Assembly: GCA_902826025.1 (NCBI GenBank)
Contig: CADEDH010000026.1
Span: 9,197 to 58,570 of the forward strand
DNA: 49,374 bases
From: an uncultured Actinomycetes bacterium
GTDB lineage: Bacteria; Actinomycetota; Acidimicrobiia; Acidimicrobiales; SZUA-35
Direction: 5' to 3'
Position 1 is the stretch's first letter, and each line of letters starts with the position of its first letter. A model generated the notes under the pieces. That model saw only the letters and a list, made by a program, of their open reading frames with translations, did no database searches and was not told the DNA's origin. Positions 885 through 45,154 of this stretch are shown here, piece by piece. A program made the translations under genes and the position numbers.

Positions 885-3290
<2,406 letters not shown>

Positions 3291-8937: not shown

Positions 8938-9653
8938 CCGTCGCCGGGCCCGTGATCGGGTGGCTGGCCGTCGGCCTGGCCGCCGGCCGGGCCGCCCGGT
9001 GGGCCGCCGACCGTGACCGGGACCAGACCAGGCGCCGGGCCGGCGCCGTGCGGGGGCCGGTGGCCTGGGACGGCGCCGGCGTCGAGGCGGTGTGCGCCGT
9101 GGTGCTGGCCGCCGTGGCGGCCCAGCTGGATTGGGGTTGGTCGGCCGCGCCCTACGTCAGCCTGGTGGCCACGCTGGCCGCCGTCACCATCACCGACCTG
9201 CGCCACTACCGGGTCCCCGATCGAATCCTGGCCGCCGGACTGACGGCCACGACGCTGGCCATGGGAGCGATCGGCGCCACCACCGGTCGGCCCGACCAGC
9301 TGCGGTGGGCCGCAGTGGGCGCCGTCGTGTTCCCAGCGCCCCTGCTCATGATCCACCTGGCCGCCCCCCGGGGCCTGGGCCGGGGTGACGTGAAGCTGAG
9401 CGTCCTCCTCGGCGCCGGGATCGGCTGGATCGGCCCCCCCGGCGTGGGCACGGTGCTCCTGGTGGTGTGGACCCTGATCGTGGCCTGCGGGCTCGGTCTG
9501 GTGGGGGCGATGGTGCAACGGGCGGCCACCACCGCCCGTCCGGCGGCAAGCAGCCCGCCGGGAGGGGCGCCGGCCGGTTCGATCCCGTTCGCCCCGGCCC
9601 TGTCGATCGCCACCATCGGCGTGGTGATCGCCGCCGGCCTGATCCTCGGGTGA
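8934..9653 (+). CDS. pilD: Prepilin peptidase (A24 family)
   Basis: This 239-residue, multi-pass membrane protein has both catalytic aspartates of the A24 aspartic peptidases. One is in TDLRHYRVPDRI and the other in GLGRGDVKLSVLLG (the GxGDxK motif). It should cut the leader peptides of the prepilins encoded here. Unlike most PilD proteins, the N-terminal region has one membrane segment and a charged loop without the paired CxxC motifs, so the N-methylation domain may be missing or reduced. The ATG at 8934 overlaps the preceding stop (ATGA). The longer upstream frame is a shadow of the PilX-like gene. Confidence 0.87.
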
Positions 9654-40979: not shown

Positions 40980-41731
40980 CGCTGGGTGAGGGGGACGAGG
41001 AGGTCGGCCAGCGTGGCGGGGGCGCACAGGAACGGCGAGTGGTCGGCGTCGATCGACACCACCTCGCTGCACCGCTCGGCCTGCTGGTCCTGGGCGGCCG
41101 GGGGCACCGCTCGGTCCTGGAGGCACGTGATGTAGGTCGACGGCACCGACCGCCAGTTGGCCCGGGTCAGCGGTTGCTTGAACGTGGCCGCCCGCTGGGG
41201 GCAAAGCCGGGCCAGGGCGGCCGCCGTCTGCGCCGGGGTGCAGGTGTTGTAGAAGATCCCGGGCCCTTTGGCCTGATCGGCGGCCAGGGTGCCATCGGGT
41301 TGACGGACGAAGAAGGCGCCGCCGCCCGAACCAGAGCCGGAGGACCGGGCGGGCGGGGCCGGTTTGGGTGGAGACGGGAAGGCGGCCATCACGCCGGCCG
41401 GGTCGTCGCCTTCGTCGGGCACCAGGGCGGCCAGGTACACGAGGCGGCTCACCCGGCCCCCGAGGTCGGCCTGGCTGATCACGGCGCCGCCGTAGGAGTG
41501 GCCAACGAGCACCACGTCGTCGGTGCCCAGCCGTTCCAGCACCCGGCTCAGGGCGTCGGCGTCGCCGTGGAGGTCGGTGAGGGGTTCGGTGGACACGCCG
41601 TGGCCCGGCAGGTCGACGGCGAACGACGGGACGCCCCGCCGGTCGAGCTCGGCCTGGAGCCCGGCCCAACACCAGGCGCCGTGGAAGGCGCCGTGCACCA
41701 GCACCACGAGGCGGGCGGCCGACCCGGTCAC
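40973..41731 (-). CDS. Alpha/beta hydrolase
   Basis: The 252-residue protein has the oxyanion phrase LVVLVHGAFHGAWCW, the nucleophile elbow GHSYGGAV and the catalytic His in DADHSPFLCAP. This is the pattern of esterase- or hydroxynitrile lyase-type hydrolases such as methyl esterases. The lid region (about 115-160) has a run of Gly and Ser. The GTG start overlaps the cupin stop (GTGA), so the two are co-translated. Substrate unknown. Confidence 0.83.
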   Translation of the reverse strand: MTGSAARLVVLVHGAFHGAWCWAGLQAELDRRGVPSFAVDLPGHGVSTEPLTDLHGDADALSRVLERLGTDDVVLVGHSYGGAVISQADLGGRVSRLVYLAALVPDEGDDPAGVMAAFPSPPKPAPPARSSGSGSGGGAFFVRQPDGTLAADQAKGPGIFYNTCTPAQTAAALARLCPQRAATFKQPLTRANWRSVPSTYITCLQDRAVPPAAQDQQAERCSEVVSIDADHSPFLCAPATLADLLVPLTQRK

Positions 41732-42405
41732 AGCGGGGTCACCCCACCCCACAGGAACCCCAGCACGGTGGCCCCGTTGGGGGTGCGGACGGTGTGCTGG
41801 CACCCGTCGGGCCGGTAGCCGACCACGCCCGGGCGCAGGGCACCGGCCTCGTCCTCCACCGTGCCCTCGATCACGAACACCAACTCGTCGCCAACGTGAC
41901 GGTGGGCCGGCAGCTCGGCTCCCGGGTCGAACCGGGTGAACGACACCGATCGCCCGGCGGCCTCATCGCGCCAGAACGCCTTCTGCTTCAGGCCGGGGCG
42001 GGTGTCGGCCCACGGCATGGTGGCCAGGTCGAACACCTGGGACGGTGGGCCGCCGCCGTCGTCGGCCCCCTTGGGGTTGATCGAACCGCTTATCACGGCG
42101 AACACGGTGGCCCCGGTGGGGCTGCGCACCGTGTGGAGGCAGCCGTTCGGCCGGTAGCCGACGTTGCCGGCCGTGATCGCCCCGTGGTCGTCGGCCAGCA
42201 CGCCTTCGAGCACATAGACCAACTCGTCGCCGTCGTGCACGTGGCGGGGCAGGGACGTGTCGGGGGCGAAGCGGATGAACATGGCCACCCGGTTCGTGTC
42301 GGAATCGGCCCACACCCGCTTGGCCTGCACCCCGGGCAACAGGTCGGCCCAGCCCATGGCCCCGATGTCGATCAGTTGCGAACTCACCACGGCGGACTCG
42401 GCCAT
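41728..42405 (-). CDS. Bicupin protein (ChrR-type cupin)
   Basis: The 225-residue protein contains two cupin units with matching metal-binding motifs. The first has LPRHVHDGDELVYVLEGVL and the second LPAHRHVGDELVFVIEGTV. Each is followed by a GYRP(N/D)GC.HTV segment. The halves resemble each other, so this is a duplicated cupin. The ChrR cupin of anti-sigma factors has this type of sequence, but there is no zinc-binding anti-sigma domain. I choose ATG 42405, which has AAGGGG nine bases upstream; the GTG at 42414 would be too close to it. It may act with the overlapping hydrolase. Confidence 0.8.
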   Translation of the reverse strand: MAESAVVSSQLIDIGAMGWADLLPGVQAKRVWADSDTNRVAMFIRFAPDTSLPRHVHDGDELVYVLEGVLADDHGAITAGNVGYRPNGCLHTVRSPTGATVFAVISGSINPKGADDGGGPPSQVFDLATMPWADTRPGLKQKAFWRDEAAGRSVSFTRFDPGAELPAHRHVGDELVFVIEGTVEDEAGALRPGVVGYRPDGCQHTVRTPNGATVLGFLWGGVTPL

Positions 42406-42490
42406 CGTGCGCACCCCTTACCTTGTTCGGGGCCAGCCCGGGAACGGGCCGGCGGTTGACCGCGACGCTAGTGCGCCGGCCGCCGCCCGG

Positions 42491-43216
42491 TCATCCTCCG
42501 GTGATGAGGCACATCCCAAACGTGGTCGCCGCCCGGCCGCCCAGGCTCTCGTTGTAGCCGGCCTCGCCCCGGAAGGTCACGGCGCCGGCGCCGGCCGGTT
42601 GGGGCACGGCGCTCCAGATCGTGTCGATCGTCCCGGGCAGGTCGAGGGTGACCTGCCAGAGGATCGGGCGGTCGGTGGTGTTGGCCAGATCGACCTGCAG
42701 GCAGAAGCCGCCGGGCCAGCTCGACGTGGTCTTGGTGGTGACGCCGATGCCCGGCGCAACCTCAGCCACCGTCACCGACGGGTCCGGGCGCTCGCCGGGC
42801 GCAGCAGCCGACGTCGTATCGGGTCCCGTCGGTGTCACCAACGGCGACTCCGAACCCGACGGCCCGGGCCGGCTCACGCCCGGATCGATCTCGGTGGAGC
42901 CGGTCGGGGCGCCCGCCGCCGTAGTGACGACGTCGATCCCAGAATCGAGGCCGGCGGTCGACGGAATCGCGACCCCGTGCGGAGCGGGCGACCCGTCGGC
43001 CACCGCCGCCAGCGAACCGTCGGTGGCGAGCCTGTCGTCGGTCGTGACCGTCAGGCTGGTGACGACGAGGGCGGCGCCGCCCAGGGCCGCCGCCGCCAAC
43101 CCCGTGGTCTGTAGGAGCCGGCGGCGCCGACGCCGGCCGGCCCGGGCGGCAATCTCGGCCACCGGGAGCGGCGAAGCCGGTGCGTACGGTTGAAGGGCCT
43201 GGCGGAGGTCAGCCAT
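42491..43216 (-). CDS. Membrane protein with CBM2-like ectodomain, candidate anti-sigma factor
   Basis: The 241-residue protein has a short cytoplasmic part (1-33) ending in six Arg, one membrane segment (about 37-57), then a Ser/Thr/Pro-rich stalk and a C-terminal domain from about 160. That domain reads as a family 2 carbohydrate-binding module. Trp167, Trp187 and Trp201 fall where CBM2a has its three cellulose-binding Trp residues. GYNESLGG matches the YN..I..G segment, and FGMC matches the end. Cys172 and Cys236 could form a disulfide. The start overlaps the ECF sigma gene stop by eight bases. No HxxxCxxC zinc motif is present. Anti-sigma function is inferred from topology and gene order. 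Confidence 0.72.
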   Translation of the reverse strand: MADLRQALQPYAPASPLPVAEIAARAGRRRRRRLLQTTGLAAAALGGAALVVTSLTVTTDDRLATDGSLAAVADGSPAPHGVAIPSTAGLDSGIDVVTTAAGAPTGSTEIDPGVSRPGPSGSESPLVTPTGPDTTSAAAPGERPDPSVTVAEVAPGIGVTTKTTSSWPGGFCLQVDLANTTDRPILWQVTLDLPGTIDTIWSAVPQPAGAGAVTFRGEAGYNESLGGRAATTFGMCLITGG

Positions 43217-43796
43217 CGACCGCCGCCGGGTTCTTCTGGGTCCAGTGCATCACTGCGTCCTCCCTGTCTCCGCCGGGGTCCCCGGCTGGGTCGCTCCCGC
43301 CGGCTGTGATGTCGTCCCCCAGCGCGCTCTGCAGGCTCCGGCGGGCCGACGCCAGCGTGGCTGACGCCGCGCCGCGGCTGATGCCCATCGTGGTCGCCAC
43401 CTCCCGCTCCGTCAGGTCCAGCACGTAGCGCAAGGCGATCGCCGACCGCTGACGGCGCGGGAGCACCCGTACCGCCTCCCACACCCGGGAATCGGCCACC
43501 GGGGGAGGTTCGAGCATCGTCTGGTCGGGCTGACGGCGTCTCAGAAGCTCCCGCTCGAGGGCCCGGCGCCGGTAGCGGCGCCGCAGCTCGTTGAGCGCCA
43601 CGCGGTAGAGCCAACCGCCGGGCGACTCCATGCGCCTCACCTTGGACCAGCGTTCGAAGGCCCGGACGAAAGCCTCGTCGGTCGCCTCGCGGGCGATCTC
43701 GCTGTCGCCCCCGGCCACGGCCAACGCCGTGAGCACGCGGGGGTGCTCACGGCGATACCAGCGCTCGAAGTTCAGGTCGGGTCCGTCGTCGATCAT
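43209..43796 (-). CDS. ECF-type RNA polymerase sigma factor
   Basis: The 195-residue protein has region 2 (FERWYRREHPRVLTALAVAGGDSEIAREATDEAFVRAFERW), a linker, and region 4 (AVRVLPRRQRSAIALRYVLDLTEREVATTMGIS with a helix-turn-helix). It has no region 1 or 3, as in ECF factors. I start at ATG 43796; the frame upstream is Pro-rich and not sigma-like. The gene lies 71 bases after the LPMO stop and overlaps the downstream CBM2 protein gene. It is likely to drive a regulon that includes the LPMO gene. Confidence 0.88.
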   Translation of the reverse strand: MIDDGPDLNFERWYRREHPRVLTALAVAGGDSEIAREATDEAFVRAFERWSKVRRMESPGGWLYRVALNELRRRYRRRALERELLRRRQPDQTMLEPPPVADSRVWEAVRVLPRRQRSAIALRYVLDLTEREVATTMGISRGAASATLASARRSLQSALGDDITAGGSDPAGDPGGDREDAVMHWTQKNPAAVDG

Positions 43797-43867
43797 GGCA
43801 GGGGTGGCGGGCGGAACAAGGGGGTGGGAGTCGGTGCCCCCCACCGGGTCAGGGGGTGGGGTGACCG

Positions 43868-45031
43868 TCACCCGATGGTCCGGGCCCGACGGTGGCGGCG
43901 GTCGGGCCGCTGCGCTCGAATCCACGCCGGCACCGGGCGGACCGGAGGCGCCAACAGGCAGGTCAGGCCGACGAGGCCGGCGACGGTCAGGATCGCGGTC
44001 ACCGTCCACAGCAGCGCACTCGAGCTGCCCGACGGCTCGGCCGCCACGGCCCCGTCGGGGGCGGCCGCGGTGGCCGACACCTCCGGGACACTGGTGGCCG
44101 ATACCACCGCGGACGGCGCCGCCATTGCGGGCGGCGCCGTAGCCGCGGATGGTTCCGTCACCGCCGGGGGCGATTCGGCGGTGGCGGACGGGGCCTGCGC
44201 CAGCTCGACCGCCGGGGAGACGGTGGCGCTGACAGCCGGCGAGGGGGCCGAGGTGGCAGGTGTGGGTGGAGCGGCCGGGGTGCGCCCGACAGCGGCGGGC
44301 GGCAGAGCGGGCGAGGCGACCGTGACCGTGACCGGCGAGGCGACGGTCGTCGGCCCGCCGGCGGCGGTGACCGGTGGCCCGGCGGCGGCGGGCACTGAGG
44401 TGGCGCCGACGGTCACGTCGCTGCAGGCATAGAACGCCTCGCTGCTGTCGTTACGTTGCCAGATGACGTAGAGGATGGCCGGGGTCGACCGTGTGGGCAA
44501 CGGGACCTGGAAGCGCGGCTCGGGCGAGGCCGCCAGCGGTCCGGAGTCGTACATCAGCTCCAGATCACCCCAAGACAGGCTGTCCGAGCGGGCGTCGAAG
44601 CCGTCCCGGGTGAGATAGAAGCGGTAGTAGGCCGTGGCATGGGGCGCCGTGCTGGTGTAGACGATGTCGACCAGGCCCGACCCGTTGGGCTGGAGGTTGG
44701 CGACCGGCCAGTTGCCGGGAGCATCGAACGCCGCGTACTTGCTGCGGTTGGCGCTGCACAGCCGGCCGTCGGGTATCAGCTCCTGGTGGTGCCCATCGGC
44801 ATCGCCGACGTTCACCTCCATCCAGTCGTACAGGGCCTGGGCGTTGGCCGACCAGGCGGCGGCGCACATCGGGTTGGCCGGGTTCTCGAAGCGGCAGGAG
44901 TAGTAGCGCGATGGCGGCCGCTGGGTCGAGCCGTGGGCGGCCGCCGGCCCGGCCACCGAGGCCCCGACGGCAGCGGAAGCGAGCAGGCCCACCGCCGCCG
45001 CGAGGAGCCGTGCCTGGAGAAGTCGTCGCAT
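43868..45031 (-). CDS. AA10 lytic polysaccharide monooxygenase, C-terminally membrane-anchored
   Basis: The 387-residue protein has a signal peptide ending in AGPAAA, giving His33 as the mature N-terminus, the first copper ligand. The second is His131 in TAPHATAYYRFYLTRDGF. RPPSRYYSC, NPMCAAAW, IPDGRLCSA and SEAFYACSDV match cellulose-active AA10 enzymes; the aromatic residue in AFYAC fits the axial position. A long Ala/Thr/Pro/Ser linker (about 205-330) leads to a membrane segment (about 336-356) and a basic tail. The enzyme is therefore probably held at the cell surface. Start is ATG 45031 or GTG 45037. Confidence 0.9.
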   Translation of the reverse strand: MRRLLQARLLAAAVGLLASAAVGASVAGPAAAHGSTQRPPSRYYSCRFENPANPMCAAAWSANAQALYDWMEVNVGDADGHHQELIPDGRLCSANRSKYAAFDAPGNWPVANLQPNGSGLVDIVYTSTAPHATAYYRFYLTRDGFDARSDSLSWGDLELMYDSGPLAASPEPRFQVPLPTRSTPAILYVIWQRNDSSEAFYACSDVTVGATSVPAAAGPPVTAAGGPTTVASPVTVTVASPALPPAAVGRTPAAPPTPATSAPSPAVSATVSPAVELAQAPSATAESPPAVTEPSAATAPPAMAAPSAVVSATSVPEVSATAAAPDGAVAAEPSGSSSALLWTVTAILTVAGLVGLTCLLAPPVRPVPAWIRAQRPDRRHRRARTIG

Positions 45032-45154
45032 GACCACGCCAAGTCACGACGGCCGCCAAGTGCTTAGCCGGAGGAGCGAATTTCCGGAGGGCCGACAGGG
45101 CCGGGGAGGACCGCCGCCGGGATCGGCCGGATCGTGGCCCCGGGCCGCCCCGCG

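Follow-up and report, generated by a model that had tools for sequence, protein, structure and literature searches.

A candidate polysaccharide-sensing switch composed of an ECF sigma factor, a CBM2-bearing membrane protein and an AA10 monooxygenase

How free-living bacteria sense insoluble polymers, which stay outside the cell, has been worked out in detail chiefly for the clostridial SigI/RsgI systems and for systems of Bacteroidota. In SigI/RsgI, a sigma factor is encoded together with a membrane anti-sigma that displays an outer carbohydrate-binding module, the system is autoregulated, and the targets are enzymes that attack polysaccharides (PMC6056542). SigI itself carries the SigI-C domain in place of the sigma4 domain (PMC6056542).

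The window analysed here (the whole stretch of 49,374 nucleotides, positions 9,197 to 58,570 of contig CADEDH010000026.1, assembly GCA_902826025.1, from an uncultured bacterium of the order Acidimicrobiales) contains a three-gene set that resembles this plan: an outer carbohydrate-binding module is present on a one-pass protein co-encoded with a sigma factor, and autoregulation and control of a polysaccharide-attacking enzyme are proposed below. The originally noted likeness to RsgI in design was upheld as one of plan, not of family membership. The window sigma is a normal ECF factor, the inner part of the membrane protein is only about 36 residues long, and neither an RsgI N-terminal domain nor any other Pfam or NCBIfam match, nor a zinc domain, was found in residues 1-36. 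Membership of SigI/RsgI was rejected because region 4 is present and the RsgI domain is absent from these residues. The phylum also differs from that of the clostridial systems, and a single lytic polysaccharide monooxygenase (LPMO) is the visible target. We consider it likely that the three genes form one polysaccharide-sensing switch, in which the membrane protein restrains the ECF sigma and the LPMO is the switched gene.

Gene order and the LPMO

Read 5' to 3' on the minus strand, the set comprises the genes for an AA10 LPMO (43868-45031), an ECF sigma factor (43209-43796) and a single-pass membrane protein of 241 aa (42491-43216), the latter a predicted sensor and anti-sigma. This order had been noted and all three genes were found in their places; the eight-base overlap between the sigma gene and that of the membrane protein is likewise real (ATGGCTGA, 43209-43216, minus strand). 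In the membrane protein, an inner part of roughly 36 residues (residues 1-36, 43109-43216) leads into one transmembrane helix (about residues 37-57, 43046-43108, hydropathy 1.85 at residue 39), after which come a Ser/Thr/Pro linker and the CBM2 domain (42503-42754), all on the minus strand.

The LPMO is composed of a signal peptide, a catalytic domain (PF03067, E 7.5e-43), an Ala/Pro/Thr linker and a membrane anchor. The features of AA10 membership are present: the mature N-terminus is predicted at His33 (HGST) and the second conserved histidine is His131. The nearest match in the PDB is CbpD (8c5n, E 1.3e-42), and the nearest solved relatives are CbpD (8c5n/7sqx), 7zjb, 6if7 and 5fjq, with 4oy6 and 4oy7 further off. 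Because a linker, a membrane helix (residues 343-361, 43946-44005 on the minus strand, hydropathy 2.13 at residue 343) and an Arg-rich tail stand at its C-terminus, as judged by hydropathy, the enzyme is probably anchored to the cell. The same C-terminal anchor layout was seen in the LPMOs of two other loci (L038 and L113). At a further locus (L111, 4774-6855, minus strand) an AA10 LPMO appeared, by eye, to end in a CAP-like domain.

The surroundings of the set were also inspected. An attenuator hairpin in the gap between the LPMO and sigma genes was rejected, as the gap folded no better than shuffled sequences (z -0.05), and an Rfam search gave no match at 40-47 kb of the window. A tandem ChrR-type cupin gene (PF12973, E 2e-40; 41731-42414, minus strand) starts about 77 bp past the membrane-protein gene. 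ChrR cupins are the sensor domains of another ECF anti-sigma; this one has no attached anti-sigma domain, and at the other cassettes no such neighbour was seen.

The outer CBM2 domain and its candidate ligands

That the outer domain has a CBM2 fold, as originally predicted, was borne out by four approaches, and absence of the fold is excluded. Pfam CBM_2 (PF00553) matched residues 159-235 of the membrane protein with 28-31 bits (cut-off 24), the only CBM_2 found in the source genome. The AlphaFold2 (AF2) model of the 95 C-terminal residues, built with 20 relatives, had a pLDDT of 96.2. In Foldseek the domain matched best the endoglucanase D CBM2 (3ndy_E, E 2e-5, TM 0.77), and structural Z scores in VIA were 11.3 for 3ndy (rmsd 2.1 over 85 residues), 11.0 for the chitinase 6bt9, 10.9 for 6qfs and 9.1 for 1exg. 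When a profile of 21 short CBM2 domains was compared with solved structures, the chitin-binding domain of ChiC (2RTT, 1.9e-12) and 1EXG (1.9e-10) were matched.

The binding face of CBM2 domains is formed by positions 17, 54 and 72 in the numbering of the C. fimi domain. Alignment to solved CBM2s placed Trp167 at C. fimi Trp17, Trp201 at Trp54 and Tyr221 at Trp72, and placed Trp187 at Trp38, the tryptophan of the core "GW", off the binding face. Three binding tryptophans had been proposed; Trp167 and Trp201 were upheld and Trp187 was reassigned to the core, so that on this alignment the predicted aromatic face is Trp/Trp/Tyr rather than three Trp. The domain is a short form, stopping after position 80-85 of the 101-position profile. 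It contains two cysteines (C172 and C236) that are invariant in all 21 short CBM2 members, an invariance that is partly by choice, these members having been selected with a pattern requiring both Cys.

Elsewhere, this short two-Cys CBM2 occurs mostly at the C-terminus of AA10 enzymes from Actinomycetota and Myxococcota; as read from their sequences, some of these enzymes also hold a GH18-like chitinase part. Since the relatives of the sensor CBM2 sit on LPMOs with such a part, chitin appears at least as likely as cellulose as its ligand. The closest solved LPMO and CBM2 sequences also include chitin binders, and the proposal of cellulose as the specific signal was thus not supported. In the source genome no GH18 was matched (control positive) and GH5 gave one match only, so that a degrading pathway is not evident; a GH6 search gave no match and its positive control was likewise silent.

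CBM2 domains of this kind were also seen in other settings. A CBM2 membrane protein at L039 (7725-8414, minus strand) has no adjoining ECF sigma, and its neighbours are histidine kinase-like and TPR genes. In genome G174 the same short CBM2 lies in a locus of pseudopilin-like membrane proteins (L115, 5241-6587, minus strand), perhaps a pilus that binds a polysaccharide.

Recurrence, sigma family and promoter

Relatives of the set were sought in the family, in the order (298 genomes of the order for the LPMO search) and in GTDB contigs. Three clear cassettes are known: the window, L038 (identical to L123; Acidimicrobiales MAG-27, same family, other genus) and L043 (another family of the same order). 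A third recurrence is partial: at L037 a sigma gene and a CBM2 sensor gene are present, and the contig starts in an LPMO-like linker with a membrane anchor before the sigma. L122 encodes an LPMO that is 68% identical, on a contig ending within the LPMO linker. The gene order therefore recurs in two other genomes and in part in a third, and lack of conservation of the pair is excluded. A genome contig scan with the membrane protein alone as query and a plasmid search each found no relative.

Cassette sensors of different genomes are 41-44% identical, and the four cassettes do not all fall in one clade of the sigma tree. The L043 LPMO has no anchor and instead a C-terminal CBM2 that is 62% identical to that of the adjoining sensor; sensor and enzyme there thus carry the same binding module. 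At L038 the LPMO gene (1340-2740, minus strand) lies in frame behind a gene for a response regulator; its signal peptide is very short (about 15 residues) and the family promoter is absent, which could reflect a rearrangement, an assembly join or changed control. Stretches of N (masked or unresolved) occur in or near the genes of interest at L053 and L165.

The window sigma (about 195 aa) consists of regions 2 and 4 only (PF04542 and PF08281, both over cut-off), and its best NCBIfam model is TIGR02983 (106 bits, under the cut-off of 141.6). Its family may already be listed as a group in the full ECF reclassification. Among 38 related ECF sigma genes of the order, 34 have directly downstream an overlapping gene for a single-pass protein in which basic residues precede the helix, compared with 21 of 544 control ORFs; the overlaps are mostly of 4 or 8 bp. 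A profile made from the inner segments of the four cassettes retrieved further partners encoded next to ECF sigmas, with E values as low as 1e-11; of its 20 best matches, almost all adjoin a sigma gene. The common pattern is M-DL--L--...P-P---L--R--RRRRR, followed by the membrane helix. The outer domains of these partners vary (Peripla_BP_6, NHL, FG-GAP, Kelch, pectinacetylesterase-like (PAE), DUF4232/BNR, or no match). The conserved part of the partners is thus the one facing the sigma and the outer parts differ, a pattern that anti-sigmas with interchangeable sensors would be expected to show.

From the profile, the alignment and the AF2 helices, the inner segment of the window protein is predicted to form a short helix, a Pro linker and an Arg-rich helix continuing into the membrane helix (helix 4-8, Pro linker and helix 19-55 in the AF2 model; mean pLDDT 78, pTM 0.33). 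It contains neither Cys nor His, and is therefore not a zinc anti-sigma. A Tat-type signal peptide was set aside as an explanation of the Arg-rich N-terminus, because partners whose N-termini do not fit such a peptide have this 36-residue segment and motif as well.

A shared element (YAAGCA-N16-RCTTGR) was first seen upstream of the LPMO genes of the window, L043 and L122. Its one other match among the loci collected by then lay directly before a paralogous sigma gene (L052). The family motif, TAAG(C/A)A-N12-CGTGACTT, has an ECF-like two-part geometry and stands before the paralogous sigma genes and before the LPMO. For a held-out comparison, a 28-bp matrix was built by EM on the upstream regions of the paralogous sigma genes only, leaving the cassettes out (log-likelihood gain 186, versus 85-94 for shuffled sets, which were run with fewer starts and single-base shuffling). 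Over both strands of the window, the top site of this matrix was at 45039-45066 (minus strand, 21.5 bits; runner-up 12.0). The top sites in L043 (20.3 bits; next 8.6) and L122 (21.1 bits; next 6.3) also lie directly before the LPMO. The LPMO therefore stands behind the sigma family's own candidate promoter in three genomes; at L038 no family promoter site was found. In the window and in L043, where the contig continues past the LPMO, the enzyme gene lies between the family promoter and the sigma gene.

The candidate ECF promoter of the window (TAAGCACTTGGCGGCCGTCGTGACTTGG) has a -35-like TAAGCA and a -10-like CGTGACTT. Because the element stops 7 nt before the LPMO ATG, its position suggests a leaderless or nearly leaderless LPMO transcript. 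The motif was matched once in the window (0.01 expected), and this site is the only full match in the source genome. Besides it, four sites with three mismatches were counted in that genome, versus 17 for the reversed-pattern control, and hence no regulon is claimed beyond the operon. On contig C6 of the source genome, a family promoter (L040, 4976-5003, plus strand, 18.0 bits) precedes another ECF sigma gene, whose partner is an overlapping one-pass protein.

Proposed mechanism, alternatives and known systems

The proposal that a CBM-bearing membrane protein runs the sigma, which acts on the LPMO, was strengthened by the CBM2 fold, the recurrence, the common inner segment and the family promoter. 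The mechanism would be as follows. The inner segment of about 36 residues would act as a short anti-sigma that keeps the ECF sigma bound at the cytoplasmic side of the membrane. The CBM2, displayed outside the cell, would bind an insoluble beta-1,4 polymer, either chitin or cellulose. Binding would break the hold on the sigma, probably via regulated cleavage or a conformational change, and the freed sigma would start transcription at the TAAGCA-N12-CGTGACTT-type promoter before the LPMO. A single transcript would then yield the membrane-anchored LPMO together with more sigma and sensor, a positive feedback.

Other roles of the membrane protein were weighed against this mechanism. It is unlikely, in our estimate, that the protein is an anti-sigma whose CBM2 merely pins the cell to the polymer, with LPMO products, mechanical pull, envelope stress or another cue as the signal. 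CBMs mainly anchor, a membrane-anchored LPMO would work beside the sensor, and the outer domains of the paralogs include propellers and a periplasmic-binding-protein domain; the near-duplicate CBM2s of sensor and enzyme at L043, however, fit sensing of the enzyme's substrate. We regard it as quite improbable that the protein serves as an adhesin or carbohydrate-binding anchor at the cell surface, co-transcribed with the ECF sigma but not controlling it. The L039 protein, with its missing sigma, and the absence of a Pfam match to a known anti-sigma domain in the window protein would agree with such a role, but the family-wide pairing and an inner segment common to proteins with unrelated outer domains would be difficult to account for if there were no link to the sigma.

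The membrane protein could also be required to activate the sigma instead of restraining it. Dual roles are described for some ECF partners, such as RskA (PMC7509140), but the studied membrane partners encoded with ECF sigmas are mostly inhibitory (PMC8103513), and very little weight is given to activation.

If this reading is true, the locus represents a compact actinobacterial solution, in which a true ECF sigma is combined with a minimal anti-sigma and with an enzyme-type binding module as sensor, and LPMO expression would be tied to an identified regulator. The short promoter before the LPMO is an element that can be tested directly. In the literature searched, "ECF sigma" and "lytic polysaccharide monooxygenase" did not occur together in any paper. 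Dozens of sister switches that differ in their outer domains are indicated as well, and these could serve as exchangeable biosensors. More tentatively, and with somewhat less than even confidence, the set may belong to an unrecognised modular receptor family of Acidimicrobiia-type actinobacteria, with an ECF that has its own promoter code, a separate class of short anti-sigma and an often-swapped sensor, here a CBM2 of the LPMO type.

Among the described anti-sigma classes, class I (zinc) was rejected: the inner segment has about 36 residues, compared with a four-helix domain of about 100, and neither the Hx3Cx2C motif nor a Pfam match was found. Class II anti-sigmas (CnrY-like) wrap around the sigma and block sigma2 and sigma4; CnrY is not known to carry a sugar-binding outer domain of its own. 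The window protein is like CnrY of the CnrY/CnrH pair in that its inner part is very short and, by the model, may form two helices ahead of the membrane segment; a sequence relation is not claimed. An anti-sigma domain shorter than 50 residues is regarded as pointing to class II (PMC7406223), and a short class II anti-sigma is the nearest structural idea for the modelled inner segment (PMC7406223, PMC8103513).

The ECF52/ECF53 proteins (SCO4117 of Streptomyces coelicolor) share with the window set an actinobacterial ECF, a membrane helix, a Pro-rich linker and an outer carbohydrate-binding domain (PMC5826349, PMC8999054). Theirs, in contrast, is one fused polypeptide with a zinc-finger anti-sigma (PMC5826349, PMC8999054), whereas the window set is encoded by two overlapping genes, has no zinc finger, carries a CBM2 and has an LPMO behind the same promoter. 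Membership of ECF52 was rejected on the two overlapping genes and the missing zinc finger. The AA10-CBM2 LPMOs of Actinomycetota and Myxococcota MAGs, some with a GH18-like part, share with the window set the short two-Cys CBM2 and a close LPMO domain. In them the CBM2 belongs to the enzyme itself, whereas in the window it forms the outer domain of a sigma-linked membrane protein.
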